Assembly: GCA_015654985.1 (NCBI GenBank)
Contig: JAATFW010000010.1
Span: 1 to 33,538, forward strand
Direction of reading: 5' to 3'
Origin: Sphingobacteriales bacterium
GTDB taxonomy: Bacteria; Bacteroidota; Bacteroidia; Sphingobacteriales; Sphingobacteriaceae
DNA: 33,538 nt
The notes below the pieces were generated by a model. The model had not been told where the DNA came from, made no database searches, and saw only the letters and a program-made list of their open reading frames with translations. Shown here one piece after another: positions 2,118 to 25,223 of this stretch (positions are counted from its first letter, which is position 1; each line of letters begins with the position of its first letter). Position numbers and translations under genes: made by a program.

Positions 2118-4304
2118 TTACAAATTGGGTTTCAGAAACCCGTCGATTTGGTGAATAACCGCATTATTAGAAAGGTTATTACTTTTGGAGACTATAACAT
2201 TTACTGATGCACCTGTCATATCTCTAACCTGCATATTATTCGGCTGATTCGTTACAGTCACCTGTGCAGTTTCTCCCCGCTCATTTTGAAATAAAGTAGT
2301 AAACCCACCATCTTTCTTACCATCAGGAACAACTATTGCTTTCTGAATGATATGGTACCTTATAAAATTGGTAACCTTGTCCTTATCCTCCTGAGCCGAC
2401 GGATTTTCTGCCGATGGAAGATATCCGAGAGCGACAGCCTGATTCATTGCTGCATTTGTGGGCACAAACAGAGTATAAAGGGATCCGGATGTAACGCCTA
2501 AAATCTCACCGGTGGTTTTATTATATCCGACTGAGTTATTGAGATAATTAAAGAATTTAGAAAAGTCGGATCCGCTTTGAGAGGCAAGCTCCTGAAGATC
2601 CAGGCCTATTCCTTTCGAAGCATCTAATAAAAGCCGGTCAATATAGTAAACGGTGCCATTAGATGCGGTCTTCTGTGAGGTGATTGCTGCCTGCTCGCTC
2701 TTTTCCTGGTTCCCTTTAGAATATACCGTATTATTATTATACTTGATATACTCTCCGCCGTAAGTTTCTGTTATTCCGCTTCCGCTGAGGCTTTTAATGT
2801 CATCATTAATAAGGTGCAGGTTGAGAATTCTGTTAAGTTTGGTCCACGCATTGGTACCTGTAATGGTGGTACCACCTCCTGGAGGTGCATATTCCCACCT
2901 GTTTGCATCGAGGTTATAAGTAAACCCAGCTGCTTTTACTGCATCATCTGATACGAGGAACAAGGTATATTTAAGATTTGTATTTATAACCGCGGGCTTA
3001 AGGGAAACTGATAAAGCGCGGGTCATTAAAGAATAGCTGGGATCCAGATAAGCTTTTCCGAAAACGGAACTGAAGACATTTGCTTCCTGCACTTTATTGG
3101 TTCCATAGAACACTCCGTTACTAAGTACCTTTTTGTCTACAACATCTGCGTCAGGATCAAATAAAGCTCCTTGCCCCTGACTGTTCAGTGTTGACGAAAA
3201 CTTGCTCGGCCATACCGTTGTAGCCCACATATGGGCATTCAGAAAATCATAAATAACTTCTGCGGGCAACTGGTCAAGAGAAATATAATGTTCGAGTAAA
3301 ACGTCATTAAGATACTTGGTCAGGGCATCATTGGTTGGAGCAAACATTGAGAAGCCATCGCCCTGAGCATCATTGTCAAAAAGCTTCAAAAAGTTCTCGT
3401 TGTTTGGGGAATAAGATAACCCTGCGTTAAATACTTTTACAAGTACATTTTCGGTGGTACCACTTATTTCCTGATATTTTGAAGTGGCGTCAGCATTGGA
3501 AAGATAAGAGACCATAAACTTGTCGTATATGTCCTTAAATTTTGAGTAGGCAGTATTTTGAGCCAGGTATTCGTCTATGTTAGGCAAGGGCTCTATAACA
3601 GAATTGATTTCGTGGATCACTCCATTCTCTGCTACAATATCTTTATTGACTACTTCTGATTGAGCAACATTAAAACCTGTATAATTAGACGAAGGATAGA
3701 AAAATTTATAATCGTACGATGAAAGACCCTTACTTGTGAAATATGAATCCATGAAGTAGGGCAAATATTTGTTATTGTTATCCGCCTTTACATAATACAG
3801 GCCCGAAGCATTATTATTCCTGTTAGAAGCCATTACCATCTGAGGCTGATTATTAACTTCCAATTGTTCTGCCCCTTTATAATAAGTAGTCCGTCTTTTA
3901 AATGCCTTTCCCGGGTCCCATCCAATGGGAGATTGAACATCAGCAAGATGGTCGGTCTTAAAGGCATTATATACCAGCGAATACTTTACAATGCCAGTGG
4001 CTTCCTCTTCTCCTATTTCACTTGCATTGTTTATGCCCTTTTGCTGAAAGTACTTTTGAAATGCTTCATCATTGGGAGCAAAGATGGTCCAGTAACCTGC
4101 CTGGCCCAGGATATCCTTGTATCCGGCTTTATCAATGCAGGTAAGAAAACTGTTAAAATTCTTTCTGGCTTGTAATTGTTGATATATTGGTTCAGCAAGC
4201 CAGTCGGGTCTTCCGTAAAAATCATCGAATTCTTTCTTGCGACAATCCGAGAACAGAAGAACTACTGATGAAAACACAGCAAGCATTAGTATAACTCTCT
4301 TCAT
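2118..4304 (-). CDS. Lipoprotein with four fasciclin (FAS1) repeats
   Basis: 728 aa. The N-terminus MKRVILMLAVFSSVVLLFSDC is a signal peptide with a loose Bacteroidota lipobox (Cys21), so the protein is probably surface- or periplasm-anchored. Four FAS1 repeats can be read from the paired motifs: TIFAPNDEAF/NGVIHEINSV (about residues 38-245), FSMFAPTNDAL/NGVFYGTNKV (about 250-415), YTLFLVSDDAV/NGTVYYIDRL (about 415-570) and YTLFVPTNAAM/NAVIHQIDGF (about 575-728). FAS1 domains generally act in adhesion or binding; in Bacteroidota such proteins are often encoded beside susC/susD pairs, where their role is not settled. It is the first gene of a unit with the downstream SusC (24-nt gap). The substrate cannot be deduced. 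Confidence 0.88.
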   Translation of the reverse strand: MKRVILMLAVFSSVVLLFSDCRKKEFDDFYGRPDWLAEPIYQQLQARKNFNSFLTCIDKAGYKDILGQAGYWTIFAPNDEAFQKYFQQKGINNASEIGEEEATGIVKYSLVYNAFKTDHLADVQSPIGWDPGKAFKRRTTYYKGAEQLEVNNQPQMVMASNRNNNASGLYYVKADNNNKYLPYFMDSYFTSKGLSSYDYKFFYPSSNYTGFNVAQSEVVNKDIVAENGVIHEINSVIEPLPNIDEYLAQNTAYSKFKDIYDKFMVSYLSNADATSKYQEISGTTENVLVKVFNAGLSYSPNNENFLKLFDNDAQGDGFSMFAPTNDALTKYLNDVLLEHYISLDQLPAEVIYDFLNAHMWATTVWPSKFSSTLNSQGQGALFDPDADVVDKKVLSNGVFYGTNKVQEANVFSSVFGKAYLDPSYSLMTRALSVSLKPAVINTNLKYTLFLVSDDAVKAAGFTYNLDANRWEYAPPGGGTTITGTNAWTKLNRILNLHLINDDIKSLSGSGITETYGGEYIKYNNNTVYSKGNQEKSEQAAITSQKTASNGTVYYIDRLLLDASKGIGLDLQELASQSGSDFSKFFNYLNNSVGYNKTTGEILGVTSGSLYTLFVPTNAAMNQAVALGYLPSAENPSAQEDKDKVTNFIRYHIIQKAIVVPDGKKDGGFTTLFQNERGETAQVTVTNQPNNMQVRDMTGASVNVIVSKSNNLSNNAVIHQIDGFLKPNL

Positions 4305-4555: not shown

Positions 4556-4601
4556 CTAAGATATAAAGCGCCGAAACTGTCTGCAACCTGTGGCATCCTG
4601 C
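4556..4601 (-). promoter_or_regulatory. Putative promoter of the FAS1-susC unit with shared 21-bp element
   Basis: In transcript orientation the element GCAGGATGCCACAGGTTGCAG (4601-4581) contains a -33-type TTG (4586-4584), followed after exactly 20 nt by TATCTTAG (4563-4556), one mismatch from the Bacteroidota -7 consensus TAnnTTTG. CAGG occurs twice, 10 nt apart, on the same face of the helix. The same element precedes the PL22-like gene and the ECF sigma gene. The sequence match is directly seen; the regulatory role is inferred. Confidence 0.6.
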
Positions 4602-4892
4602 TTAACATAATATGTCAAAAAGACATTTAATTGCACTTAAACAGGGAAATCGGCCATTTATGATGTTGGAGCGCCCTTAAAGCCGGATACCTTAAGAATA
4701 GCAAACAAAATTGTTACAAAACAATATGTTCAAAAAAGCTTCAAACAATTTGCGCAATGTTATTTCATTTAAAAATCAACAGTTAACTGAAACCTCCGGG
4801 GCAGGCCTGCAGCATCGCGTTAATTTTCAGAAAACTTTTATTGCGCACCGGGAGGAACGTTTGGGATGTAAACGGGGGAAGAGGATATATAT

Positions 4893-4924
4893 AAGAGGCC
4901 GTCCAATATTTTGAACAGCCTCTT
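4893..4924 (-). terminator. Hairpin downstream of the PL22-like gene (weak terminator candidate)
   Basis: In transcript orientation AAGAGGCTGTTC and GGACGGCCTCTT pair over 12 bp (two G-U pairs) around the loop AAAATATT, about 120 nt after the PL22-like stop. No clean U-tract follows (ATATATAT), so a role as processing or transcription stop is only tentative. Confidence 0.4.
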
Positions 4925-5046
4925 GTTATTAATCCAGCTTCAGAAATGACAGGGGTTTAAGATATTTTCTAAAGTTGTTTAGTTATCTTATTGATCCGGA
5001 TTATATAAATCTGTTGCTTCTTAACCTGCTAAAGTTACTTCGGGTA

Positions 5047-6291
5047 TTATTTGTTAATACTAACAGCATAAATCTGTTCAGTGCCTTCAAAATTAGCCCT
5101 GAAAATAACCCATTTACCATCCGGCGAAAAATGGACGTTTGGTTCTAATTTATAATTATGCTTTTTCATATTCACCAGCCTCTCAGATTTAAACCGGTTT
5201 CCATCAGGCTTAAAAAGGTATATCCACATGCCATTTTCTGCTTTGGCAACCTGAGTAGGATTGCCGCCGTCTCCCGTAAATAAATTTCCGCCTTTAAAGA
5301 CATTGTAATGGATAGACCATTCGTCGCGGCTTAACTGAAATGAACGTTCTTTACCTGTATTAACATCGGTTCCTGCCAGGTAAAAAGTTTCTCCGCGGGG
5401 TTTCTGCAGGTCGAACCATATGACCGACCCATCGGGGCTGAAAAATTCATGGCCCGCTATTTCCATATCCATAGATCGCTTATGCATCAGTTTTACCTCG
5501 CCACTGGCAACATTGATGGTCCAGATACGGTCAACTTTATGCCAGGGTCCCTCATGACAGAACATAAGCAACGAAGGATTTACCGGAGAAAACTGGACAT
5601 GACCCAACCAGGTATTTTCTGTATGAATTTTTTTTAATTCACCTGTTTTAATAGTTACAGTAAATAAGGTGTTGGGTAAATGCGCATCATAAATCCTGTT
5701 AAAATAGTCATGTTTTTCGGGATATTGCTTAGATATGTTTTTTTGTTCATCCGTAGCGTATGTGCCCGCCAGCATACTGGCATCAGCATTCAGCGTTGTA
5801 ATATTGGCTTTGAAATCTGCAGGAAAAACGTATACCAGCCTTATTTTCTTAGTAGTAGCAGATACCGCAAATACACTATCCCCGGTTTGATAAAAAACCT
5901 CACCGGTTAAGGGGGAAACTATTTCTGCTCCCTTCCGTGAAGATGAATTGGTCAGGGCCGTTGTTTTCAGGGTATTCAGGTTAACGGTATAAACCTGCCT
6001 GTTCCCAGCCTCATCGGAGTGGAAAAAAGCCATCAGATCCGGCTTCAAAAAGGGGTTATTATGAAAATAGAAACTGGCGCTGCTTCCCGGTAAACGGGAT
6101 AAGCGGATGATCTTATGTCCGGTATCTTTATCAATCCACTCATTGGGCATTGGGCTCACGGAACCTGTTTCCAGTATTTTTTGTGATCTGGCAGCGCCGG
6201 CCAGCAATAACATGCCCGTCAGGCAGAGTACTAACTTATAATTTCTGAATGCTTTAGGGACTGCTGTCCTCCTGTTATTTTTAACTGTCAT
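5047..6291 (-). CDS. Secreted oligogalacturonate-lyase-like beta-propeller protein (PL22 type)
   Basis: 414 aa with an N-terminal hydrophobic segment (about 18-36, LVLCLTGMLLLAGAARSQ) that predicts export. The rest reads as a beta-propeller with repeated SPDG-type blade motifs. Signatures typical of oligogalacturonate lyases are visible: HVQFSP (231-236), CHEGPWHKVDRIW (245-257), GHEFFSPDG (280-288), IHYNVF (327-332) and LEPNVHFSPDGKWVIFRAN (382-400). PL22 enzymes cleave short unsaturated galacturonides by metal-assisted beta-elimination. The C-terminal ligand segment reads EPNVH here, and I cannot map the Gln/His ligands of characterised enzymes onto it with certainty, so substrate specificity is open. 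It is flanked by a terminator and its own promoter, hence probably monocistronic. The rhamnose operon nearby would fit a rhamnogalacturonan-like or other rhamnose-uronate substrate (inference). Confidence 0.75.
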   Translation of the reverse strand: MTVKNNRRTAVPKAFRNYKLVLCLTGMLLLAGAARSQKILETGSVSPMPNEWIDKDTGHKIIRLSRLPGSSASFYFHNNPFLKPDLMAFFHSDEAGNRQVYTVNLNTLKTTALTNSSSRKGAEIVSPLTGEVFYQTGDSVFAVSATTKKIRLVYVFPADFKANITTLNADASMLAGTYATDEQKNISKQYPEKHDYFNRIYDAHLPNTLFTVTIKTGELKKIHTENTWLGHVQFSPVNPSLLMFCHEGPWHKVDRIWTINVASGEVKLMHKRSMDMEIAGHEFFSPDGSVIWFDLQKPRGETFYLAGTDVNTGKERSFQLSRDEWSIHYNVFKGGNLFTGDGGNPTQVAKAENGMWIYLFKPDGNRFKSERLVNMKKHNYKLEPNVHFSPDGKWVIFRANFEGTEQIYAVSINK

Positions 6292-6330
6292 ACTTATGGA
6301 TATAATTGGTTTACTATCTTGAATCCTAAG

Positions 6331-6376
6331 TAAAGGTAATGGCGGGGCCTACCGGCTGCAACCTGCCGTATCCTGC
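6331..6376 (-). promoter_or_regulatory. Putative promoter of the PL22-like gene with shared 21-bp element
   Basis: In transcript orientation GCAGGATACGGCAGGTTGCAG (6376-6356) carries the -33-type TTG, then 20 nt, then TACCTTTA (6338-6331), one mismatch from TAnnTTTG. Transcription would start about 30 nt before the ATG at 6291. The element matches those at 4581-4601 and 14180-14200 at all fixed positions. Confidence 0.65.
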
Positions 6377-6543
6377 TTTTTATGTAACAATAATGAGTCA
6401 ATATTCAGCGATTTTATAGGGGCGATATTCTTTGAAGGTTCAGAAAAGGATAAGAGGTGCTTTTTATGGCTAAGAGCAAACTAAAAGCCCGAAGAATAAT
6501 ATACCATGAAACCATCATGGCTTTTGCGGATATTCAGACCAAA

Positions 6544-6590
6544 TGAAAAACAGTGCAATACCGGTATATAATATACCGGCATGCACTGTC
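6544..6590 (-). terminator. Intrinsic terminator after susD
   Basis: In transcript orientation ACAGTGCA-TG-CCGGTATA-TTA-TATACCGG-TAT-TGCACTGT forms two 8-bp stems with a small internal loop and is followed directly by TTTTTC. It sits about 25 nt after the SusD stop codon and ends the susC-susD transcript. Confidence 0.85.
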
Positions 6591-6611
6591 CAACAAACCT
6601 GGTTAACAACA

Positions 6612-8612
6612 CTACCAGTTAGGATTTTGTATTGCCTGCTTTTCGTCAGGAGTTAAAGCCTTTCCGTCTTTCTTTATTGCATCAAGGAAGCTTTGCGGGA
6701 TAGGCCGCAGATTATGTTTGTTTTCCAGCGGTTGCGCTTCATCATTAAATGCGGTGGCCCGGGCTACCAACGTTTTGCTACGGGCCAGATCTTCCCATCG
6801 CATCAGTTCTCCCATTAATTCCCTGGAGCGTTCGTTTAATATGAAATGAAGAAATTTATCTGCATCTGAAGATGCACCAACTTTATCGTAGAATTCACGG
6901 GTTGAATTGAAAATATCATTAGCACTGTTAATGTGGAGGTTAGGTAATGAACTTTCTGTTGTTGCCGTCATATTGTTAGATTCATAATAAGTATTTTTAT
7001 CAGAATATGAAACAAAGGCTGCAGTATTAGCTGCTGCATTATTCTTGTAAGCAACTCCACCGTCAACATACGCCGAACGATCCTCGCCTTCTTTATAAGA
7101 TGCACGATCACGAACCTTATTAATATAGGGTAAAGCTCTATCATATTGCCCCAAGCGCCCGTATGCTTCTGCTGCAATCAGATAAGTTTCTGCCAATCTG
7201 GCCAGAATTCCATCACGCCGGCCAAACTGGTTTGCCACATCGGCACGCGAGCCATCCATAAATTTAGAGAGAGCTACAAAACGGCTCACCACTGTGGGAT
7301 CTGTGGTGCTTATGTAACCAAAATTCCCATGGATACCTTTTAGACTTTCGCTCTGGCCACTGAAATATCTGACAAACATATGAGGCGCCCTATAATTAAT
7401 ATTGTCTGCAGTGTACCGGCTGTCGCCGGCGTTGTTCACAATATACAGAATTGATTCCTGCCCGCCGGCGAATTTAGGCTGCCCCACCAAAGCAGGAGTT
7501 GGAGCATATTGAGCAGTCCAGGCGGGAGCTGAAGCCGGCCTGTTACACAGATAGCGGGTTTTAAAACTCTTCCAAAAACGCGAATCATTAACACGGTCGT
7601 ATACATCCAGCGCATAATTGGTTGAGCGAAGACGCTGAAATTCCCTGTCGCCGGGAATATCACGCTGCATTCCGGCCATATTCTGGTATACCGAAGGATA
7701 GTATAAATGAACCTGGTTCCCATATCGTCCCTGGGTGGTAGTATTATCGGAAAACTGTGCCGACAAAATTATCTCGGGAAGTGTTTCGTTAGGACCATTC
7801 ACGGCTGTATAGTTCCACAGGTCACTGAAATTATCAGCTAATCGGTGGGGGCTGTTATTTATTACGTCATCGGCATATTTAATGGCATTTTCCAGATCGC
7901 TCTGCTTAGTAGCTCCATTCCAGTCGCTATATAACTCACTGGCACGATATAAGTAAACCTTTGCAAGAAAATGAGCAGCAGCCCATTTTGTAATCCGTCC
8001 GGTTTCTGCTGGTGCAGCAGGAAGTAAACCATACGCAGTAGTAAAATCACTTATAATCTGATCATAAACCTCCTGTGCAGTATTGCGGGGAAATTCAAAC
8101 TGAAGGGATGTAGATTGTGTTAGTTTTAAAGGAACGCCTCCAAATTGTTTTACCAGTTTAAAATAATCAAAAGCACGCATAAAATATCCCTCTCCCATAC
8201 GTGTATTTTTGTTTGCCCCATCTCCGTAATAAAGAGGGACATTCTCGATAACAATGTTTGCTGAGTTAATATTACCATACATGTTGTTCCACACAGAAGT
8301 AATGTCGCCCGTTTGGGAATTTAAATTAGCATCATACGAATTCCACATCTGCATGGTACGATCGCCACCCACACAAAACTCATCTACACCGTAGTTTGTT
8401 GTTGAGTAAGCCCACTCATAATTAAAATGAAACCTGAGGCTTTGGTACATCCCGGTTACCAACCCGTCAAGCCCCTCAGGAGTTTCGAAATCCTGTGTAC
8501 TCCTTGAAGTGACCAGGTCCTCCTTTAAAAAATCTTTTGTACAGGAAGATGGTAAAATCATACATCCTGCCAGTACGATAATGCTATATAATAATTTTGA
8601 AATACTGTTCAT
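6612..8612 (-). CDS. SusD/RagB-type glycan-binding lipoprotein
   Basis: The ORF track starts at 8654, inside susC, but the second Met (8612) gives a proper lipoprotein signal, MNSISKLLYSIIVLAGCMILPSSC (Cys24), and a 28-nt gap from the susC stop. The resulting 666-aa protein has the SusD N-terminal region (FLKEDLVTSRSTQDFETPEGLDGLVTG), the alpha-helical TPR-like core (GEGYFMRAFDYFKLVKQFGGVPL) and the C-terminal family motif (ILNERSRELMGELMRWEDLAR). SusD proteins cap the SusC barrel on the cell surface and bind the incoming oligosaccharide. Co-transcribed with the SusC at 8641-12063 and followed by a terminator. Confidence 0.95.
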   Translation of the reverse strand: MNSISKLLYSIIVLAGCMILPSSCTKDFLKEDLVTSRSTQDFETPEGLDGLVTGMYQSLRFHFNYEWAYSTTNYGVDEFCVGGDRTMQMWNSYDANLNSQTGDITSVWNNMYGNINSANIVIENVPLYYGDGANKNTRMGEGYFMRAFDYFKLVKQFGGVPLKLTQSTSLQFEFPRNTAQEVYDQIISDFTTAYGLLPAAPAETGRITKWAAAHFLAKVYLYRASELYSDWNGATKQSDLENAIKYADDVINNSPHRLADNFSDLWNYTAVNGPNETLPEIILSAQFSDNTTTQGRYGNQVHLYYPSVYQNMAGMQRDIPGDREFQRLRSTNYALDVYDRVNDSRFWKSFKTRYLCNRPASAPAWTAQYAPTPALVGQPKFAGGQESILYIVNNAGDSRYTADNINYRAPHMFVRYFSGQSESLKGIHGNFGYISTTDPTVVSRFVALSKFMDGSRADVANQFGRRDGILARLAETYLIAAEAYGRLGQYDRALPYINKVRDRASYKEGEDRSAYVDGGVAYKNNAAANTAAFVSYSDKNTYYESNNMTATTESSLPNLHINSANDIFNSTREFYDKVGASSDADKFLHFILNERSRELMGELMRWEDLARSKTLVARATAFNDEAQPLENKHNLRPIPQSFLDAIKKDGKALTPDEKQAIQNPNW

Positions 8613-8640
8613 GATATTTTCATTTAAATGTTTCCGTATA

Positions 8641-11600
8641 TTAAAATCCAACATTCAGCCCAAATACGAAGCCCCGGTTAAACGTCGAGCCTCCCAGATC
8701 GGGATCAATCCAGTTAATTTTAGAATAAATCAATCCGGGATTCATTACCTGTGCATAAATCCTTGCATTTGAGATGCGGAGCTTATTACTAAAGGACCGG
8801 GGGAGGTTATATCCCAATGAAATATTACGAAGTTTAATAAAAGAAGCCTCCTGGTAATTCATTGCACTTTTATAAGGATCGCCGGAGGCGCTGCCGTAGT
8901 TAGGTGCCGGATAATCGTTAGTAGGGTTGTCAGGAGTCCAATAATCCACTAAGCGCTGGGCAAAGCGCCCCTGCAGCGATTCGGCCCCGGTAGCTATTGT
9001 GAAGCCCCAGCGTGCATACAAGAAAAAGGAAAAATCCCAGTTTTTATAAGTAAATGTATTGGTAATCCCAGCCGTCCAGTCCGGATTTTCATGCCCAACA
9101 ATCCTCCGGTCATTATTTGCATCAATCTTATGATCTCCATTCAGATCTGCGACCCTAATGGTACCGGGAGCAAATTGATGCCCTCCGGTGGTATTAAATG
9201 TTTCCATTTCCGCCTTATCAGCGTCTGTATCCTGCCATATGCCCACTTTTACATAGTCATAAAATATATTAAGCCTTTCGTCTATAAACCATAAGTTATT
9301 GATATCGTCCTCATTTCCGTTAGCCAGACTCACAATCCGGTCTCTGTTGGCAGAAAAATTCAAAGTGGATGACCAGTTAAAATCTCTTTTCTTAATATTA
9401 ACCGTGTTGAGTGTTAAATCAATTCCTTTATTGGCTGTGGAGCCGATATTTGCAAGACTTGTTGTGTACCCCGTAGTAGAAGGAATACTCATTAACATCA
9501 ACAGATCATTGGTTTTGGTGGTATATGCGTCCAAAGCACCGCTAACCCTTCCTTTGAAGAAATCAAAATCAACACCCAAATTCCATTGTGTGGTATGTTC
9601 CCATCCCAGATCATAATTCGGCATCGAAATAACATTGGCGGCTGCAAGAGAAGGATCTGAAGACACATAACCGGGCTCTACAGTACTTCCCCAGGTATAA
9701 TATAAAGTTGACACAGGACCTTTTGTAGTATACGGGGAAACAGATGCATTCCCTGTACTGCCAAATCCAATCCTGAGCTTTAACAGATCTATCCACGACG
9801 TACCTTTCATAAAGTTCTCCTGATCCAAACGCCACGCAAGAGCAAGAGAAGGGAAGAAATCCCATTTATGCCCTTCGGCAAGCTGCGACGCCCCATCCCA
9901 GCGAATTGACGAAGTAAGCAGGTATTTGCTGTTAAAATCATAATTAAAACGGGCCATGTATGATGTCAGCGAGTTTTCCGTTAACCCCGATCCAAAAGAA
10001 TATAAACTGCTTACCGAGTTGAGACTGTTCCATTTCTGACTGGTCCAGGGAAGATTTCTCGCTACCATTGAAGATGTTTCTTCACGATAGGAGGAAGCGC
10101 TTTGGAGCAGGGTAACCCCCAGATGATGTTTTTCGGCAATAGTCTTATTATAATAGATCAGGTTGTCCAGCGTCCACGCTAAACGGGAACGCTGATTTAA
10201 CTGGGCTTCATTATAAGAACCCGCTTCTCCGGCCCCGGTATTAATAGAATTTTTGTCCGCCCAGCGTCCGTTTCGCCAGTTATAAAAATCCGGTCCGAAG
10301 TTGACCCGGTATTTCAGTCCGTCCATTATGTTAACTTCGGCATAAAGGCTTCCCATTGTTCGCAGCACTTTGCGCTCATTTATATTATATTTATCTTCAC
10401 CTATTGGATTTAGGATATTAATGTCGCCTCCCGGCAGATTAATGCGGTTACCATCATCATCATATGGGACAGCATAGGGAAGCATTCCCTGGGCTGCAAA
10501 GTAAAGATTTCCAGGCCCCGTAACATTGCTGGTTGCATATCCATAATTCTGAATACCATACGTAGCCGTTATATTTCCACCGAAAGAGAACCATTTTACA
10601 GGATTAACATCTACACTGAACTTTCCGCTGAAACGTTCATAATCCTGCCCAAGCTGGGTCCCCCCTTGGTTTAAATAGCCAAAGGAACCGTACCCTTTCA
10701 GCTTATCTGTACCACCGCTCGCACTCAGGTTATGATCATAGGTAATACCCGTTTTTAGTACCATATCCGTCCAATCAGTTGTAGGCACTAAACTACCATC
10801 CCAGGTACCGTTCTGCCAGCCTTTGACAATGTTTCTCCAAGCGTATCGATCCATAGAAAAAATAGCCGAATCAAGAGCCCTGGTAGGAGTGTAATATTTA
10901 TATGCATCACGACGAAATTTAACATATTGAGCTGAATTCATCATGTCCGTACGGTCATACATATTTTCAATGGTAGTTGTTCCAACATAATTTAATGACA
11001 GGCTCCCCTGTTTACCTTTCTTTGTAGTAATCAAGATCACACCATTTGCTCCCCGTGATCCATAAATAGCTGTAGCAGAAGCATCTTTTAGTATATCAAT
11101 AGTTTCTATATCGTTTGGATTAATGGCTTCAATTCCACCTGCAGCCAAAGGAATTCCATCAACGACGTACAATGGGTCACTTGTTGCATTGAGTGAACGC
11201 ACTCCCCTGATCAGAACTCTACCCATCTCGCCGGGACGTTCATTTGATGTGATGTCTACGCCCGCCGCCTTTCCCTGTACTGCCTGTAAAGCATTCTGTA
11301 CCGGTCGTGACCGAATTTCCTCTGCTCCAATGCTTACTACAGAACCTGTTACATCGGACTTCTTAACTATATTATAACCAACAACAACTACTTCATCTAA
11401 CGCTCTAACATCTTCTTTCAGTTGAATGTCAATATGGGTCCGGCCGTTAATGGGCAATTCCTGTGAAGCAAAACCAAGATAAGTGATCACAAGAGTGCCG
11501 CTTACATAGGCAGATGGTATGGTCAATTTATAATTTCCGGCTATATCGGTGGCTACACCCAGACTAGACCCCTTAATTTTAACACTTACACCAACAAGTG

Positions 11601-12063
11601 CCTCTCCGGAAGATGACGTTACCTTCCCGGCAACAATAATATCTGCAGCTTCGGATAATTGTGAGGTAAGTGCTTCCATCTTTTCCATCGCCTCCTTCCT
11701 TTTCATCTTACTCAGAACGATCTGGTTATTGACCACATCATACCTGATCCCTCTTTCATAGAACAGAGAATTCAGTATTTCTGATAACCGCTCCTCATCA
11801 GCTTTTACAGAAACTTCCTGCTCTATATTGATCAGGTTTCTGCTATATACGAATTTGACATTTGCAGATTTCTCTATTTCTGCCAATACCGTCTTCAGGT
11901 TAGACGATGTCAGGTCGATGCTGACTGTATTATTTAATATACCCTGCGCTTTGCCTGATCCCGCATAGGATGCTCCGCTCAGAATAAACAATACGACCAA
12001 CTGACTTAAGGTAATTCTCATAATATACAACAAGTCTTTAGGGAGTTGTAAATAAAATTTCAT
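8641..12063 (-). CDS. SusC/RagA-type TonB-dependent receptor with STN signalling domain
   Basis: 1140 aa, complete. After the signal peptide an STN domain (about residues 45-115, NNTVSIDLTSSNLKTVLAEIEK) follows, then a carboxypeptidase-regulatory-like domain (about 143-225, GKVTSSSGEALVGVSVKIKG), the LDEVVVVGY motif, the plug (GKAAGVDI, LIRGVRSLNATSDPLYVVDG, LKDASATAIYGSRGANGVILI) and a 22-strand-type barrel ending in NVGF. The STN domain contacts the FecR-type anti-sigma factor encoded just upstream, so this receptor probably reports glycan import to the ECF sigma factor as well as transporting. Met15 (12021) is an alternative start giving a more compact signal peptide (MRITLSQLVVLFILSG). 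An 11-bp inverted repeat lies in the 181-nt leader between fecR and this gene. Confidence 0.96.
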   Translation of the reverse strand: MKFYLQLPKDLLYIMRITLSQLVVLFILSGASYAGSGKAQGILNNTVSIDLTSSNLKTVLAEIEKSANVKFVYSRNLINIEQEVSVKADEERLSEILNSLFYERGIRYDVVNNQIVLSKMKRKEAMEKMEALTSQLSEAADIIVAGKVTSSSGEALVGVSVKIKGSSLGVATDIAGNYKLTIPSAYVSGTLVITYLGFASQELPINGRTHIDIQLKEDVRALDEVVVVGYNIVKKSDVTGSVVSIGAEEIRSRPVQNALQAVQGKAAGVDITSNERPGEMGRVLIRGVRSLNATSDPLYVVDGIPLAAGGIEAINPNDIETIDILKDASATAIYGSRGANGVILITTKKGKQGSLSLNYVGTTTIENMYDRTDMMNSAQYVKFRRDAYKYYTPTRALDSAIFSMDRYAWRNIVKGWQNGTWDGSLVPTTDWTDMVLKTGITYDHNLSASGGTDKLKGYGSFGYLNQGGTQLGQDYERFSGKFSVDVNPVKWFSFGGNITATYGIQNYGYATSNVTGPGNLYFAAQGMLPYAVPYDDDGNRINLPGGDINILNPIGEDKYNINERKVLRTMGSLYAEVNIMDGLKYRVNFGPDFYNWRNGRWADKNSINTGAGEAGSYNEAQLNQRSRLAWTLDNLIYYNKTIAEKHHLGVTLLQSASSYREETSSMVARNLPWTSQKWNSLNSVSSLYSFGSGLTENSLTSYMARFNYDFNSKYLLTSSIRWDGASQLAEGHKWDFFPSLALAWRLDQENFMKGTSWIDLLKLRIGFGSTGNASVSPYTTKGPVSTLYYTWGSTVEPGYVSSDPSLAAANVISMPNYDLGWEHTTQWNLGVDFDFFKGRVSGALDAYTTKTNDLLMLMSIPSTTGYTTSLANIGSTANKGIDLTLNTVNIKKRDFNWSSTLNFSANRDRIVSLANGNEDDINNLWFIDERLNIFYDYVKVGIWQDTDADKAEMETFNTTGGHQFAPGTIRVADLNGDHKIDANNDRRIVGHENPDWTAGITNTFTYKNWDFSFFLYARWGFTIATGAESLQGRFAQRLVDYWTPDNPTNDYPAPNYGSASGDPYKSAMNYQEASFIKLRNISLGYNLPRSFSNKLRISNARIYAQVMNPGLIYSKINWIDPDLGGSTFNRGFVFGLNVGF

Positions 12064-12144
12064 AATTTTAAATGTTTTATTTTAACGAATGAGACAATAA
12101 AAACCCTTTGCACGTGAGTGCAGTAGTTCCAACTATAGGTTTTG

Positions 12145-12177
12145 GTTAAGAAGTGCCGCACACTTCTTAACTTTTTT
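12145..12177 (+). terminator. Plus-strand intrinsic terminator between fecR and susC (possible antisense RNA end)
   Basis: GTTAAGAAGTG-CCGCA-CACTTCTTAAC is a perfect 11-bp inverted repeat with a 5-nt loop, followed on the plus strand by TTTTTT. On the minus strand the hairpin is followed by CCAAAACC, so it does not look like a terminator for fecR. No plus-strand gene precedes it. It could end an antisense RNA arising at the susC 5' end, or act as a palindromic operator or leader structure for susC. Confidence 0.6.
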
Positions 12178-12244
12178 AATACGGTTTCTTATTCTTATCT
12201 ATGTCATATATAAACTGGTTTTAATAATTGGATTAATTTGGTTT

Positions 12245-13249
12245 TTAATTGCTTTTAATGAGTATTTTTTTCTCAGTTATTTCATAGTTTACATCCAGAG
12301 ACCTGCTTATCATTTCCAGGATTGCCGGTAAATTCTGACCAGTAAAATCTGCCTTTAAAGTATAATTCCTGATTACAGGATCTTCAACATTAATTTTAAC
12401 ATTAAACCTGGCGTTCAGAGCTTCTGCAACTTTGCCTATCGGTTCATTTTCAAAAGAGATGCTCGTTTTTTCCCAAATCCTCAGGTCTTTGCTGGTTTCC
12501 TTAACCTGTATCATTGTTTTACTTTTCTGGTTGTACATTGCTTTTTGTGCAGACTGAAGAATGACACCTTTTTGCTCTGAAGAGCCTTTTTTCGGAATGT
12601 ATACATACACTTTTCCGGTAACAACGGAGATTTCGGCCAGACCTGAATGGCTCAATGCCTTCACATTAAAACTTGTTCCCAATACCCGTGTCCTTAATTC
12701 ACCTGTATAAATAATAAAGGGATGACTGGCGTCATGCTTCACATCAAAAAAGCATTCTCCCTCTAAACGGACTTCCCGGTACTTTTCTGAGTTTTGGAGA
12801 TAACTGATGTTCGTATGAGGCTTAAGCCATGCACTGCTGCCATCAGGGAGAATGTAATTCTTTAATTTATTCGAATTATTAGAAAAAGTGAGAATTCCTT
12901 TTGCATTAGTTGTTTCAGGCCTTAAAGAATCAATTTCCGGAAGAAAATAATGAACAATAGAAAATACAATGATAACCGTTGCGGCAATTAACGCTGCCGA
13001 ATAAAATAGTCTATGGACCTTATTTCCTGATTTTTTTACAGAAGAGGGTAAATTATATCCAAGATTACTCCGAATGCTTTTAAGCATTTTTTCTTTGATT
13101 TCTTTTTGCTGCGCCGGCGAAAGTGACTCAACAGGTTCGGGAATATCTTCGAACGATGCATACCAATCGTACAAAAGCTTTACTTCTTCTGCATTACACC
13201 TATTCATCAGATACTTTTCTATTAACTCAGGAGATATCTTTGTCCTCAT
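12245..13249 (-). CDS. FecR-type anti-sigma factor
   Basis: 334 aa. The N-terminal cytoplasmic part (1-80) would hold the sigma factor, followed by one transmembrane helix (about 82-104, FYSAALIAATVIIVFSIVHYF). The periplasmic FecR domain (about 115-240) includes LPDGSSAWLKPHTNISY, VRLEGECFFDVKHD and the TRVLGTSFNVKA motif. The C-terminal Bacteroidota-specific region (about 262-334, DUF4974 type) includes FENEPIGKVAEALN and resembles an STN fold. By family knowledge it relays a signal from the STN domain of the adjacent SusC and then releases or activates the ECF sigma factor. It lies 229 nt after the sigma gene and 181 nt before susC, the usual order for such trios. Confidence 0.95.
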   Translation of the reverse strand: MRTKISPELIEKYLMNRCNAEEVKLLYDWYASFEDIPEPVESLSPAQQKEIKEKMLKSIRSNLGYNLPSSVKKSGNKVHRLFYSAALIAATVIIVFSIVHYFLPEIDSLRPETTNAKGILTFSNNSNKLKNYILPDGSSAWLKPHTNISYLQNSEKYREVRLEGECFFDVKHDASHPFIIYTGELRTRVLGTSFNVKALSHSGLAEISVVTGKVYVYIPKKGSSEQKGVILQSAQKAMYNQKSKTMIQVKETSKDLRIWEKTSISFENEPIGKVAEALNARFNVKINVEDPVIRNYTLKADFTGQNLPAILEMISRSLDVNYEITEKKILIKSN

Positions 13250-13478
13250 ATATTGAACGTAAGCTTATAGTCAGTTTTATGTATAGTGAGTTAAAACAGG
13301 AATACCCCCTACGCAGGGAAAAAAATTCTTCAGATAAAGAAAAAGGGAATAATGACACAAATAGGCTACACAGAAATCTATTGTTAAATTATACGTAATA
13401 AGTCGTAAGGTACTAAGTGTAAATCGCCTGAAATCTTTTGTTTTATAAACGCAATAGCCAGTTTGTCTTAATATAACA

Positions 13479-14063
13479 CTAGAGCCAGGTATAAATCAGC
13501 AACCACAGAGAGGTGAGATATTTTAGGTTTACCCGCAATATTCTCAAAGCCTTTGTAAGCTGGTTTTCAACAGTCTTTTCTGAGATACCTAATACGGAAG
13601 CTATCTCTTTATTAGATTTATATTGTTTACGGCTAAGTTCAAAAACGGAGCGACACCTGCCGGGAAGATGACTGAGTTCAGCATCTAAATTTTTCCCAAG
13701 ATCGTGGAGGGCTATAACTTCTTCTGTAGAATTGTCATAAATACTTACCTTACCAAGAGCAAATTCTTCATAAGATTTCCGGCTATATTCTTTACTAAAA
13801 TAAGCAAAGACCAGATATCTCACCGAACTGTACAAATAATTTTGAAAAGAAGTATGAATAACAAGTTTTTCCCGGTTGAGCCATAAACTGGTAAAAAGTT
13901 CCTGAACTATTTCTTCAGCAACTTCTCTTACTCTGATCCTCTTAAAAGCACTTGAGTACAATTTGCACCAATACCTGTTATATAGTTCTTCGAATGCTTT
14001 AGTATCTCCCTCCCGGCAAAGATCTACCAGATTCTTATCAGATAATTCATCTAAGTGCCTCAT
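13479..14063 (-). CDS. ECF-type RNA polymerase sigma factor (FecI-like, Bacteroidota family)
   Basis: 194 aa, the normal length. Region 2 (about 20-90, DTKAFEELYNRYWCKLYSSAFKRI, VAEEIVQELFTSLWLNRE) binds core polymerase and the -10 element. Region 4 (about 125-180, LSHLPGRCRSVFELSRKQYKSNKEIASVLGISEKTVENQLTKAL) is a helix-turn-helix for the -35 element. The C-terminus is markedly hydrophobic (LTSLWLLIYTWL), common in this family. It is partnered with the FecR protein downstream and probably drives the STN-type susC-susD operon. Its own upstream region carries the 21-bp element shared with the PL22-like and FAS1 units. Confidence 0.95.
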   Translation of the reverse strand: MRHLDELSDKNLVDLCREGDTKAFEELYNRYWCKLYSSAFKRIRVREVAEEIVQELFTSLWLNREKLVIHTSFQNYLYSSVRYLVFAYFSKEYSRKSYEEFALGKVSIYDNSTEEVIALHDLGKNLDAELSHLPGRCRSVFELSRKQYKSNKEIASVLGISEKTVENQLTKALRILRVNLKYLTSLWLLIYTWL

Positions 14064-14153
14064 AGTATAAATCGTAGGATTAACATTTTAAAACGTATAT
14101 GAGGGCCCTGTCGTTAGTTCTCCCGCATTAGGTCTTATAATATTTTGGTCATC

Positions 14154-14200
14154 TAAAAATAAGTGTACCTTAGGCACTTCTGCAACCTGTACTGTCCTGC
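14154..14200 (-). promoter_or_regulatory. Putative promoter of the ECF sigma gene with shared 21-bp element
   Basis: In transcript orientation GCAGGACAGTACAGGTTGCAG (14200-14180) contains the -33-type TTG, followed after 21 nt by TATTTTTA (14161-14154). An imperfect inverted repeat, AAGTG...CACTT, lies in the spacer. Transcription would start about 85 nt before the sigma factor ATG. The element lies just past the lutC stop (14225), with no clear terminator between. Confidence 0.6.
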
Positions 14201-14224: not shown

Positions 14225-14809
14225 TTAATCTATCAAAAACACCGTCATACTTCTTGGCCCATGGGCTCCGAGCACCAGTGACTGTTCAATATCTGCTGTT
14301 TTGGAAGGCCCTGCGATAAAAGCACCGAAACCAGGGTTTCGGTTACCCAGAATCTGATAAGCTTCGTGCATGTTCCTTACTATATCCTTTTTGCTGACTA
14401 CCAGGGCCAGATGCTGACAGATAAAGGGAAGGATCCGTTGCATCATCTTGTCCTCCGGGAGCCATAAAGCTCCGTTTTCGGCAACTCCGAGTTCTGCCTG
14501 AAGAACAGCAAGATTAACATCGTTTAAAGAGTGCGGGTCGGGATCAGTTAACCGGATTTCTGCTATATCTGCCAATTCTGTAAATGAAGATACGATCCTG
14601 CCGGGTAAAAAAAGTTTTGCTATTGCCTCTTTTATTTCATCAAAACTGCTCACGGGGAATACCCTGCTTCCTATATTAGTAGCTATTAAAGTGAAGTTTT
14701 CCACGGGATCCAGATTAACGTCAACGGGGAGCTCCAGTTGAGGCAGTGGTTTTAAAGCCGGTTGATTAGCCTTTACCGATGATAGTATTTTTTCTCTGCT
14801 CGACGTCAT
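14225..14809 (-). CDS. lutC: LutC/LldG-type LUD-domain protein, L-lactate utilisation
   Basis: 194 aa, matching the LUD (formerly DUF162/YkgG) family. Visible conserved segments are the N-terminal SSREKILSSVKANQP, the central LAVLQAELGVAENGALWLPED and the C-terminal GPSKTADIEQSLVLGAHGPRSMTVFLID, which is a strong family signature. LutC is part of the cytoplasmic LutABC complex that oxidises L-lactate to pyruvate. It is the last gene of the rha-lut operon, 80 nt after lutB; the gap contains a heptad repeat. In this setting the lactate comes from rhamnose via lactaldehyde. Confidence 0.92.
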   Translation of the reverse strand: MTSSREKILSSVKANQPALKPLPQLELPVDVNLDPVENFTLIATNIGSRVFPVSSFDEIKEAIAKLFLPGRIVSSFTELADIAEIRLTDPDPHSLNDVNLAVLQAELGVAENGALWLPEDKMMQRILPFICQHLALVVSKKDIVRNMHEAYQILGNRNPGFGAFIAGPSKTADIEQSLVLGAHGPRSMTVFLID

Positions 14810-14814
14810 TTTTT

Positions 14815-14843
14815 GTTGCGGGTTGAATGTTGTGGGTTACGGG
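14815..14843. repeat. Degenerate 7-nt tandem repeat (GTTGNGG, four units)
   Basis: On the plus strand the lutB-lutC spacer reads GTTGCGG GTTGAAT GTTGTGG GTTACGG G, four units in phase starting 6 nt outside the lutC start codon. A second, unrelated 7-nt array lies in the rhaI-rhaB spacer. Confidence 0.65.
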
Positions 14844-14889
14844 ATAAAACAATATGCATATTCTATTTTATCTGTTCAAAATCCGTTTC

Positions 14890-16257
14890 TTATTTGCTGC
14901 CCCGGTTCTTAGCGTACCATTCCCTGAATGATTCCTTTGGAGGCACGGGCATTTCCCGCGATTTGTACCATGGGTTCAGCTTATTATTGACTAAAAAAGG
15001 CAGGGTCTTCATTACCCAGCGGCCGCTTTTGCCGGCAAAGGCAAATAAAGCAGGAAAAGAAAGCACCCACGTCATTGTTTTTATGCTTACCGATTTCACA
15101 TTGCTTACATACCCTTCCTTTACCAGTACCTGGCGCCATTTATACAACTGATCGTGAATATCTATTTTTACCGGACATACATTAGAGCACGAACCGCAAA
15201 GAGTTGAAGCAAAGGGCAGGTCGGCAAATTCCTTCATATCAAGGTTTGGGGCCAGGATAGAGCCTATAGGACCGCTGATGACAGAATGATAGCTATGGCC
15301 GCCGCTTCTCCTGTAAACAGGGCAGGTGTTCATGCACGAACCGCAGCGGATACATTTAAGGGAATTCCGGAAATCCTCCCTGCCTAACTGACGGCTCCGG
15401 CCGTTATCAACCAGAACGATGTGCATTTCCTGCCCCGGGCGGGGGCTTTTAAAATGGCTGGAATATGTTGTTATTGGCTGGCCGGTAGCGCTCCTGGTAA
15501 GGAGCCTCAGGAATACGCCTAAGTGCTTTCTTTCAGGAATAATCTTTTCAATTCCCATGCTCGCTATGTGCACCTCTGATAAATGGACTCCCATATCAGC
15601 ATTTCCTTCATTTGTACAAACCACAAATTCGCCGGTTTCGGCCACTGCAAAATTTACACCTGTAAGCGCCACCCTGCGGGTAAGAAAAGTATCCCTGAGA
15701 TGTTGCCTGGCTGCTTCAGTAAGTACCTGGGGATCAGACTCTCCTTCTGCAGTTCCAAGGTATTTATGGAACAGCTCGCCTATTTCCTCCTTTTTTTTAT
15801 GAATACAGGGGAGTACAATATGGCTTGGATGCTCTTTTCCCAATTGAACAATACGCTCGCCAAGATCGGAATCGATCACTTCTATTCCGTTCTCTGTAAG
15901 ATAATCATTCAGATGACACTCTTCTGTAAGCATTGATTTACTCTTCACCATTCTCTCCACCTGATGCTTCTTAAGGATTGAATGAATGATCTCATTATGT
16001 TCCTTTGCATCGGCGGCCCAATGAACGGTAATGCCATTGGCCAACGCGTTTATTTCGAACTGTTCAAGATAAGCGCTGAGATTTGAGAGTACATTGTTCT
16101 TTATCTGTGAGGCAGTTTCACGCAGCCACTCCCATTCGGGAATTCCATGAGCCATCCGGTCTCTTTTCTGCCTGATAAACCATAGTGTTTCATCATGCCA
16201 GTTGACTCTGGGCTCATCAATATTAAACTCTTCGGATAATGCCGCGTGATCTTTCAT
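14890..16257 (-). CDS. lutB: LutB/LldF-type iron-sulfur protein, L-lactate utilisation
   Basis: 455 aa. The N-terminal two-thirds is a LUD-type domain (TRRVALTGVNFAVAETGEFV, CTNEGNADMGVHLSEVHI). It is followed by two [4Fe-4S] ferredoxin-type clusters, CIRCGSCMNTCPVYRR and CGSCSNVCPVKIDIHDQ, and a hydrophobic C-terminal part (TMTWVLSFPALFAF). LutB passes electrons within the LutABC lactate dehydrogenase complex. It overlaps lutA by 4 nt (ATGA), which suggests translational coupling. Length and motif order agree with the family. Confidence 0.94.
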   Translation of the reverse strand: MKDHAALSEEFNIDEPRVNWHDETLWFIRQKRDRMAHGIPEWEWLRETASQIKNNVLSNLSAYLEQFEINALANGITVHWAADAKEHNEIIHSILKKHQVERMVKSKSMLTEECHLNDYLTENGIEVIDSDLGERIVQLGKEHPSHIVLPCIHKKKEEIGELFHKYLGTAEGESDPQVLTEAARQHLRDTFLTRRVALTGVNFAVAETGEFVVCTNEGNADMGVHLSEVHIASMGIEKIIPERKHLGVFLRLLTRSATGQPITTYSSHFKSPRPGQEMHIVLVDNGRSRQLGREDFRNSLKCIRCGSCMNTCPVYRRSGGHSYHSVISGPIGSILAPNLDMKEFADLPFASTLCGSCSNVCPVKIDIHDQLYKWRQVLVKEGYVSNVKSVSIKTMTWVLSFPALFAFAGKSGRWVMKTLPFLVNNKLNPWYKSREMPVPPKESFREWYAKNRGSK

Positions 16258-16988
16258 AAGCTATTTAAAATTTCAGCGATATGCATCACCTTCACATTAC
16301 TTTTCTGCCTGCGCAGGATCCCTTCCATATGCATCAGACAGGAGAGGTCAGCTCCGGTTATATACTCAGCACCGTTATGGATATGATCGGCAACGCGGTC
16401 TTTACCCATTTTGGAAGATACAGCCTCTTCAGCTACGCAAAACGTCCCGCCGAAACCGCAGCATTCATCCACCCGGTTGAGAGAAATAAGTTCTATCCCT
16501 TCAACCATATTCAAAAGCTGTTCGGGTTTTGAAAACGGGGGAGCAACCAGCTCACTCATTTGCGACAGATGGAGTCCTCTCAGCCCGTGACAGCTTTGAT
16601 GCACGCCAACCTTGTGCGGAAATCTTGCTTTCAGGTCTTTTACTTTTAAGATGTCTGTCATGAACTCTACCAGTTCATACACCCTGGTACGCAGGATCTT
16701 AGCATCGTCAGGATGCTTTTCCGAGTGAAGATGATCTTTAATATGAAGGGCACAACTGCCCGAAGGAACTACCACATAATCAAACCCTGCAAAATTCTCT
16801 GTAATAAGATCATCACACTCTTGTGTGAGATGAGAAAAACCCGAATTGGCCATTGGCTGGCCGCAACAGGTCTGCCGCGAAGGATAAACCACATCAACTC
16901 CCAGCTTTTCAAGAAGCTGTAGAGTTGCAATGCCTGCCTGGGGATAAAACTGATCTACATAACAGGGTATAAATAACCCAACTGTCAT
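16254..16988 (-). CDS. lutA: LutA/LldE-type CCG-domain protein, L-lactate utilisation
   Basis: 244 aa with two cysteine-rich CCG-type domains, as in LutA and heterodisulfide/glycolate oxidase Fe-S subunits: YPSRQTCCGQPMANSGF plus HQSCHGLRG, and VDECCGFGGTFCV followed by TGADLSCLMH. It begins MTVGLFIPCYVDQFYP, typical of LutA. It forms the LutABC complex that oxidises L-lactate to pyruvate. Its start overlaps the end of the upstream kinase gene by 4 nt (ATGA), tying lactate oxidation directly to rhamnose catabolism in one transcript. Confidence 0.94.
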   Translation of the reverse strand: MTVGLFIPCYVDQFYPQAGIATLQLLEKLGVDVVYPSRQTCCGQPMANSGFSHLTQECDDLITENFAGFDYVVVPSGSCALHIKDHLHSEKHPDDAKILRTRVYELVEFMTDILKVKDLKARFPHKVGVHQSCHGLRGLHLSQMSELVAPPFSKPEQLLNMVEGIELISLNRVDECCGFGGTFCVAEEAVSSKMGKDRVADHIHNGAEYITGADLSCLMHMEGILRRQKSNVKVMHIAEILNSL

Positions 16989-18370
16989 ATCGTTAATTCT
17001 GATGCTGAATAATATTTTAAATCTATAATACTTGAAGGAAGCGGACTAGAATTCCAGTGATTATGCAGGGCAAGGGCGGCGCCAATTGATGTCGCCTGAG
17101 CCACCGAGGCAGCAAAAACCTCCATTTCGGGAAATGCGACAGCCAGCAGATTCATATATACCGGATTCTTACTGAATCCTCCGTCAACAAATATACGCCT
17201 TACATCAGTGCCGTTCAGCACTAATTTTGTCGATTTTGTCTGCATTTTCAGCAAATCAATAATTAACTGGTGATAGGCTTCTTCCTTAGACGAGAAGGCG
17301 GAAAGATCGCGGTTTTCGAATCCGGAGGCGATGAGGTTATCAGAATGCCTTGAGGGTTCGATAATATCGCTGCCCGCCTGAAGCCGGGCGGCTGTTTCAG
17401 AATTATATTGTATCCGGTTATAAAACCCGGTTGCTGCATTAAAATGAGATGCTATTCTTTTACATTGCTGCTCATGTTCGTTTCCGGCGAACAAACGGGA
17501 GGCCTTTACAAAATCCTGCCGGAAGCTGATGTAACAAAGGCAATCGTTCTTCAGCTCTTCCTCAGTAAGCGGTGAAGAATTAAATGCATTTAAACTTACG
17601 CACCATGTACCGGTGGAAAGCAATACAAAAGGTTTCTGAAAGCTGGCAATAAAAGGAATGAAGGCAGCAGAGCTGTCGTGAAGACCTACTCCCGCAAAGC
17701 GCTTTCCACCCTCAACCGTCACTTCAAGTGCTGCATCTGAGGGATACAGAGGAGCAAGTTTCTCAACGATGCCCTCCTCCTTTACCCACTGGTGATAATC
17801 TCTTTTGGTAAAATCCCATAAACCCGTATGACAGCCAATACTTGTAATATCGCTGTATACTTTGCCTGTAATCAGATAGCTAAGATATTGCGGAAGGTGA
17901 AGCGAATATTTAATCTTTTTAAACAGTTCGGGCTTTTCATATTTTAACCGGTATAGCTGCATGCCTGAATTCAGGCTGCCAAGTACTGGCGAAGCGGTTT
18001 CGGCCGACACCTTTAATTCTCCGCCATACTGATCATAAAACTGCTTTTTCAGCTTTTCAGGGTAGGGCTTCAGATAATTATAAAGAGGGGTGACCGGATG
18101 ACCGTTTTCATCAATATGAACAAAACTGGCTCCATAAGCCGAAAAGTTGACGGCTTTCAGATCAAACTCCTTCAGCTTTGCCAACTCCTGAAGCCTTTCC
18201 CTGATCCAGGAGGAGAGAAGATTGAGGTCCTCGCAGGGATCACCATCTTCATCAGTTGTCTCTTCAAAACGGGCGGACCTTTCTAATACGATCTTATATT
18301 GTTCATTAAAGAAGAACACTTTCTTGTTGGTTTTCCCAACATCAAATACTGCTATAACCGGAATTGCCAT
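16985..18370 (-). CDS. rhaB: FGGY-family carbohydrate kinase, probable L-rhamnulose kinase
   Basis: 461 aa with the FGGY kinase architecture: N-terminal phosphate-binding VIAVFDVGKTNKKVFFF, a middle FGGY_N region (ITSIGCHTGLWDFTKRDYHQW), the glycine-rich LLSTGTWCVSLNAF and the C-terminal RRIFVDGGFSKNPVYMNLLAVAFP adenosine-binding part. On sequence alone fuculose, xylulose or rhamnulose kinase would be possible. The position between a RhaI isomerase and the downstream lut genes, together with RhaEW and RhaT, makes L-rhamnulose kinase (giving L-rhamnulose 1-phosphate) by far the best reading. Overlaps lutA by 4 nt. Confidence 0.83.
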   Translation of the reverse strand: MAIPVIAVFDVGKTNKKVFFFNEQYKIVLERSARFEETTDEDGDPCEDLNLLSSWIRERLQELAKLKEFDLKAVNFSAYGASFVHIDENGHPVTPLYNYLKPYPEKLKKQFYDQYGGELKVSAETASPVLGSLNSGMQLYRLKYEKPELFKKIKYSLHLPQYLSYLITGKVYSDITSIGCHTGLWDFTKRDYHQWVKEEGIVEKLAPLYPSDAALEVTVEGGKRFAGVGLHDSSAAFIPFIASFQKPFVLLSTGTWCVSLNAFNSSPLTEEELKNDCLCYISFRQDFVKASRLFAGNEHEQQCKRIASHFNAATGFYNRIQYNSETAARLQAGSDIIEPSRHSDNLIASGFENRDLSAFSSKEEAYHQLIIDLLKMQTKSTKLVLNGTDVRRIFVDGGFSKNPVYMNLLAVAFPEMEVFAASVAQATSIGAALALHNHWNSSPLPSSIIDLKYYSASELTI

Positions 18371-18379
18371 GTTAATTAG

Positions 18380-18459
18380 TTATGAGTGATGAGTTATGTG
18401 TTATGAGTGAAGCATGGATCTTATTCAGAAGCATTCATCACTCATAACCCATCATTCAT
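18380..18459. repeat. Inverted pair of degenerate 7-nt tandem arrays in the rhaI-rhaB spacer
   Basis: TATGAGT GATGAGT TATGTGT TATGAGT (18381-18408) faces CATTCAT CACTCAT AACCCAT CATTCAT (18432-18459). The two arrays are reverse complements in register: TTATGAGTGATGA (18380-18392) pairs perfectly over 13 bp with TCATCACTCATAA (18435-18447). The fold would lie between rhaI and the kinase gene in the operon mRNA and could act as a stabiliser, processing site or attenuator; the sequence alone does not decide. Confidence 0.75.
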
Positions 18460-18465
18460 CACTGC

Positions 18466-19740: not shown

Positions 19741-19864
19741 CTGTTTACTATTTATTTTTCAGTAGTGATGAAGCGATCATGAGAACTCTATCCGTCCGGA
19801 TTTGTGAACTTCTGTAAATGCTCATGACCGTTTCATTTTTATTATTGGTTATATCATTCTTTTT

Positions 19865-21982: not shown

Positions 21983-22005
21983 ATATTCTCCAATTTTGGT
22001 ATTTA

Positions 22006-23082: not shown

Positions 23083-23115
23083 GGATCAGGAAATTATAAT
23101 TGTTGTTATGGAGGC

Positions 23116-25221: not shown

Positions 25222-25223
25222 GT

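Follow-up and report, generated by a model that had tools for sequence, protein, structure and literature searches.

A tandem direct-repeat operator ahead of sigma-A-type promoters, and its probable GntR-type regulator, in rhamnose and rhamnogalacturonan loci of Sphingobacteriaceae

Promoters of rhamnose and rhamnogalacturonan I (RG-I) genes in Sphingobacteriaceae carry an 18-bp tandem direct repeat at a fixed distance from a sigma-A-type -7 box. Based on sequence comparison, we propose that this element probably serves as operator for a GntR-type protein that has a LacI-like sensor domain and would bind head to tail and activate a sigma-A promoter. In the prevailing view, most glycan loci of Bacteroidota each respond to a local sensor (HTCS, SusR or ECF/FecR). 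In the system described here, one soluble regulator seems to bring numerous separate RG-I loci, an ECF system and the catabolism of monosaccharides together in one regulon, through an operator specific enough for the gene set to be found from sequence alone (2 reversed-control matches in 251 genomes). This makes it possible to predict RG-I breakdown in soil members of the Sphingobacteriaceae and Chitinophagaceae, and the system offers a simple setting in which to test activator action at the unusual Bacteroidota sigma-A promoter.

Operators and target genes in the window

A pattern search of the window, the whole stretch of 33,538 nt that we analysed, returned three mismatch-free copies of GCAGGA-N5-CAGGTTGCAG at 4601-4581, 6376-6356 and 14200-14180, all on the minus strand, confirming that the elements seen in a first-pass annotation are real and exact. 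With up to three mismatches allowed, four copies were found where 0.14 were expected from a dinucleotide shuffle. The distances from the TTG inside the element to a -7-like box, given earlier as 20, 20 and 21 nt, also held.

All operators, boxes and target genes described in this section lie on the minus strand. Operator 1 (CAGGATGCCACAGGTTGC, 4583-4600) is upstream of a FAS1 lipoprotein-SusC unit and is followed after 19 nt by the -7 box TATCTTAG (4556-4563), with a predicted start near 4551. The unit comprises a FAS1 (Fasciclin) lipoprotein-like gene (2118-4304; PF02469) and, after it, a SusC-like TonB-dependent receptor gene (3-2093; Pfam) that is cut by the window edge. Operator 2 (CAGGATACGGCAGGTTGC, 6358-6375) precedes a PL22-like gene of the oligogalacturonate lyase family (5047-6291; PF14583, 89.5 bits against a cut-off of 30), again with a box 19 nt past it (TACCTTTA, 6331-6338; predicted start near 6326). 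Operator 3 (CAGGACAGTACAGGTTGC, 14182-14199) sits between lutC and an ECF sigma factor gene (13479-14063; PF08281/PF04545), and its box TATTTTTA (14154-14161) follows after 20 rather than 19 nt, with a predicted start near 14149; the predicted starts all fall about 5 nt past their boxes. A FecR-type anti-sigma gene lies at 12245-13249 (PF04773/PF16344), and a SusC gene (8641-12063) and a SusD gene (6612-8654), assigned by Pfam and gene order and together spanning 6612-12063, are presumably downstream of the ECF/FecR pair.

We identified a fourth, divergent site that the first-pass annotation had not included. It lies upstream of rhaT at 23160-23116 and has the CATGACAG form: operator 4 (CATGACAGTACATGACAG, 23143-23160) is followed after 19 nt by the box TATTTTAG (23116-23123), with a predicted start near 23111. 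The target run (14225-23082), annotated by Pfam and NCBIfam, consists of rhaT (22006-23082), rhaD (19865-21982), rhaI (18466-19740), rhaK (16985-18370), lutA (16254-16988), lutB (14890-16257) and lutC (14225-14809), whose spacing suggests a single rhamnose/lactaldehyde/lactate catabolic operon. This run lies upstream of the ECF unit and sets the theme of the locus, L-rhamnose and RG-I.

Two features of the window stand apart from the operators. The untranslated leaders of FAS1-SusCD units are unusually long, with operator and start codon about 150-320 nt apart (window 4551-4304; also L013, L036 and L079-L093), which may indicate leader regulation; the leader in the window carries a short ORF with an ATG near 4481. 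At 27758-31001 a CusA/AcrB-type RND gene is broken up over two ORFs that overlap (profile positions 2-422 and 415-1019), through a frameshift or an assembly error; it adjoins two HMBD/HlyD adaptor genes (24019-26555).

Operator structure and promoter geometry

We aligned 103 family sites; many are orthologous or come from related genomes, so they do not all count as independent. Conservation covers 18 bp, CAKGAYRS-N2-CAKGWYRS, in which two 8-bp half-sites (CAKGWYRS) form a tandem direct repeat with a 10-bp period, unlike the palindrome NyGTNxACNy typical of GntR operators. An earlier description of a 21-bp element with a variable central N5 stands as far as the exact copies go, but the conserved stretch covers only 18 bp: the outer G is partly conserved (G 49, A 40, T 14), the terminal AG shows no conservation, and the supposedly variable centre has a conserved Y-R-C-N-R. 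Conservation is equally high in the two half-sites. Half-site positions 3 and 8 co-vary in parallel, to an extent reached in 0 of 2000 shuffled pairings, as expected for two identical readers arranged head to tail.

The distance from operator to box is nearly invariant. TAnnnT begins exactly at +19 in 95 of the 103 exact CAGG-type sites, at +18 in one and at +20 in none, and the box at +19 to +26 has T (96), A (99), T (99) and G (88 of 103) in the arrangement TA-nnn-T-n-G. This corresponds to the sigma-A -7 box TAnnTTTG, with the penultimate position (the third T of TTTG) weak. The Bacteroidota sigma-A -7 box lies at -12 to -5 (PMC9723704); with the box so placed, the operator spans -49 to -32 and is centred at -40.5, which is the layout of a class II activator site, centred near -41, overlapping -35 and at fixed spacing. 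The ECF-type promoter motif of Flavobacterium has CGT (PMC9723704), whereas the box here is TAnnWTnG at +19 in place of a CGT-type -10 box.

We found TTG at -33 in the CAGGTTGC subclass, where the operator itself supplies it, and did not find it in rhaT-type and Chitinophagaceae sites. In rhaT orthologs and in Chitinophagaceae, ACA, ATA or similar replaces TTG and the 19-nt geometry is unchanged. Because rhaT sites keep this geometry without TTG, we interpret the TTG as part of the operator, dispensable as a -33 box, and, taking the class in its entirety, reject the idea that a TTG is essential at -33.

The CATG form of the operator had 53 matches in 47 of 251 genomes and none in the reversed control. 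Its positions 14-16 are ACA or ATA, and 38 of 40 CATG-type sites have TA at +19, with no TTG at -33. The operator-19 nt-box arrangement lies ahead of rhaT in most of the relatives examined, and the CAGG and CATG forms swap at orthologous rhaT promoters. Intermediate forms occur at rhaT itself (CAGGACAGAACAGGATAG, CAGGACAGCACATAACAG) and the CAGG form precedes rhaT and rhaD in Chitinophagaceae, so both forms belong to one operator class.

The regulon and its candidate regulator

To describe the distribution of the element we used the composite pattern CAKGWYRS-N2-CAKGWYRS-N19-TAnnnT. In the source genome, a fragmented assembly of 355 contigs that is 88% complete, the pattern gave seven exact and two one-mismatch matches and none in the reversed control; the one-mismatch matches are the ECF site, with its spacing of 20, and a site before a class II aldolase gene on contig C27. 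All of these matches precede genes that fit a role in RG-I or rhamnose use. A search with GCAGGA-N5-CAGGTTGCAG at up to two mismatches also placed the element ahead of a PL11 rhamnogalacturonan lyase operon (C198), a GH43-like gene (C311), another FAS1-SusCD unit (C250) and an esterase gene (C78), again with no reversed-control match.

Across 251 genomes, taken as Sphingobacteriaceae according to named relatives, the core CAGGAYNCNNCAGGTTGC had about 100 exact matches in 53 genomes (reversed control 0), and the composite pattern yielded 575 sites in 139 genomes (reversed control 2). Few copies fall inside genes: about four of the 103 family sites are well within large ORFs and the others are promoter-proximal. 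The targets of the 103 sites include FAS1-SusCD units (21), GH88/105 (16) and SusC (13) genes, as well as RG-acetylesterase-like, PL11, GH43 and other genes, and Pfam adds GH28, GH2, GH78-like and GH115 genes. The shared site, the sigma-A promoter and the coherent targets support the earlier proposal that the sigma/anti-sigma genes share one regulon with the FAS1-SusC unit and the PL22-like gene. There is support as well for extending this regulon to rhaT-rhaD-rhaI-rhaK-lutABC and to RG-I genes on other contigs.

Two target promoters showed further features. The one-mismatch operator on C27 lies directly ahead of the class II aldolase gene (PF00596; L355 1500-2870), which may also belong to the regulon. 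On C78 (L008, about 1330-1440, minus strand) a long near-perfect hairpin, AAAAAGUGGAUGCCAG...CUGGCAUCCACUUUUU, with a fold z-score of -6.3, separates the operator/promoter from the esterase gene; it may be an attenuator, a terminator or an inserted repeat.

One protein recurs near the sites. It has 343 residues, with an N-terminal GntR winged helix (PF00392, 31.4 bits against a cut-off of 27) and a C-terminal LacI/PBP-like (Peripla_BP_3) effector domain (PF13377, 34.5 bits against 26.5), and in a PDB sequence search it matched the AraR winged helix 4egy. Winged-helix residues 44-80 are highly conserved among 118 relatives from two families, with many positions invariant. In the source genome the gene (C198:22514-23542) lies on a different contig from the window, where it is the last gene of the PL11 operon, which itself begins with an operator, and adjoins rhaM and GH106. 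Many genera have an ortholog next to rhaT. In Niastella, Filimonas, Sphingobacterium and others, gntR neighbours rhaT or diverges from it and a site separates the two; Niastella and Filimonas are among those in which the operator lies between gntR and a divergent rhaT-rhaD-rhaM-rhaI-rhaK run. The regulator that recurs by rhaT is of GntR type and not a member of the published RhaR families (AraC, DeoR, LacI).

Linkage and co-occurrence together lead us to this GntR protein as the probable reader of the element. In 22 of the 30 motif genomes that were inspected, a CAGG site lies within 20 kb of gntR. Of the 575 sites, 573 fall in the 181 GntR-encoding genomes and two in the 70 genomes without the protein (Fisher P 1.6e-28), an association confounded by relatedness and lifestyle, as genomes without the GntR mostly lack rhamnose genes too. 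The GntR is present and the exact composite site absent in 44 genomes; four genomes (G443, G534, G076 and G177) have a single site and no GntR, which is about chance level. Outside the family, multi-site genomes also carry a GntR of the same type or a 36-43% paralog. The source genome encodes three other GntR/LacI paralogs at 34-38% identity, and some genera have two closer GntR co-orthologs, so that the individual operator sub-forms may be read by different ones of these proteins.

Divergent from the PL11 operon on C198 are a pyruvate-formate-lyase-like gene, a probable activase gene and an OFA-type MFS transporter gene (L094 2218-6755). This set is conserved beside gntR in Arcticibacter too and may represent a fermentative branch of rhamnose use.

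Mode of action and known systems

We propose a mechanism in which two identical GntR winged-helix domains would occupy the two 8-bp half-sites on the same face of the DNA, head to tail, so that the bound dimer would lie at -49 to -32, centred at about -40.5 and locked 19 nt upstream of the sigma-A -7 box. Rhamnose or an RG-I breakdown product would be the inducer bound by the regulator, which would stand in for the -33 element and recruit sigma-A RNA polymerase. Activation would turn on RG-I degradation (SusCD units, PL11, GH88/105, GH43, esterase and PL22-like genes) along with rhamnose uptake and catabolism. Sequence, geometry, gene content, linkage and co-occurrence are observations, whereas direct binding, the dimeric mode, activation, the effector and the cascade described below are what we infer here. 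The first-pass annotation had suggested a dedicated activator site and had named no regulator for it; a dedicated regulator site ahead of a sigma-A-type promoter is borne out, with activation as its likely mode.

The same GntR regulator could instead be a repressor that covers the -33 region until rhamnose or an RG-I fragment frees the polymerase, which we consider unlikely. The sites at -49 to -32 lie where a repressor would act. Most GntR proteins are palindrome binders and repressors, which counts against a GntR activator, and LacI-type sensor families are likewise mostly repressors. The AraR of Firmicutes has the same domain layout; it regulates arabinose genes (PMC4494728), and the PDB lists it under the name of a repressor. 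However, a repressor needs no locked spacing, and the spacing is exact in 95 of 103 and 38 of 40 sites; rhaT-type promoters also lack TTG at -33, so a replacement is needed. We regard activation as considerably more probable than repression, because a locked distance to the -7 box, even where there is no -33 element, suits contact between an activator and polymerase.

It is improbable that the tandem repeat is read by an unlinked protein from a different family, such as AraC, DeoR or the response regulators, and that its GntR neighbour is incidental. RhaR motifs of the DeoR type are built as direct repeats of 10-11 bp, the RhaR of B. thetaiotaomicron is an AraC activator (PMC3870299), and a 10-bp period also suits response regulators. 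In the rha neighbourhoods read, with ORFs partly profile-annotated, no DeoR or AraC gene was recognised next to the sites, whereas gntR recurs; one neighbourhood (G197) also has two HTCS genes. AraC sites show 21-bp periodicity (PMC3870299), and an AraC monomer reads its halves with different helices, a poor fit to the parallel variation of the half-sites that makes an AraC-type monomer disfavoured. An extended -35 recognised by a particular sigma factor, such as the ECF sigma factor encoded at 13479-14063, had been suggested as well. The fixed spacing and the element upstream of the ECF gene itself would suit this idea, but the -7 box TAnnWTnG is of sigma-A type and lacks the CGT of the Flavobacterium motif, the TTG is dispensable, both half-sites are equally conserved, and no ECF/FecR pair of the window type is among the targets of the site-rich PULs of G197 (120 kb) and G135 (60 kb). 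We therefore reject this reading as very improbable. Short elements are able to spread, but a dispersed repeat or chance similarity with no regulatory role is rejected as most improbable of all, given the unrelated flanks, promoter-proximal positions with about 4 of 103 sites inside genes, the geometry, the coherent target functions and near-zero reversed controls.

The proposed GntR regulator resembles several known systems in part. It shares its PF00392 + PF13377 chimera with the AraR subfamily, the Firmicutes arabinose regulator, which likewise has a sugar and plant-polysaccharide regulon (PMC4494728), but differs in its tandem direct-repeat operator at a fixed distance from the -7 box, its rhamnose/RG-I genes and its occurrence in Sphingobacteriaceae and Chitinophagaceae. 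NanR, NagQ, FarR and MocR-type GntR proteins also use direct repeats rather than palindromes (PMC4494728), but belong to other subfamilies with other motifs and no LacI-like sensor. FucR of Bacteroides thetaiotaomicron (BT1272), likened here by its description, is another Bacteroidota GntR regulator of deoxy-sugar (fucose) catabolism, described with a single target operon (PMC3878776). RhaR/RhaS control the same pathway (rhaT, rhaD, rhaI, rhaK), and in Erwinia RG-fragment genes belong to the rhamnose regulon; known rhamnose regulators are of the AraC, DeoR or LacI family (PMC3870299), in contrast to the GntR family here. Bacteroides RG-I loci use HTCS, and HTCS_Rgu and SusR control RG and glycan PULs through direct-repeat sites (PMC3878776), but these are AraC-type or SusR-type with spacings of about 21 bp or 67-77 bp and are mostly PUL-local, whereas here one soluble regulator would act across many loci. 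In the open-access literature we found no account of a rhamnose/RG-I regulon under a GntR protein in Sphingobacteriaceae or flavobacteria, and a regulon organised under a GntR/LacI class II activator is undescribed for Bacteroidota in the literature found.

The full reading is that the GntR/LacI chimera is a head-to-tail class II activator replacing the -33 element and heads a family-wide regulon of rhamnose/RG-I and ECF genes, with the ECF sigma/anti-sigma tier referring to this genus; we consider the chances for and against it evenly balanced. With the ECF sigma gene as a target, gene order points to a two-tier cascade in which the regulator would act on the sigma/anti-sigma pair and the pair in turn on its own SusCD unit. 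The 20-nt spacing at the ECF sigma promoter (window 14154-14199) is also found in two genus-mates (G002 and G004) and may lower sigma factor output.
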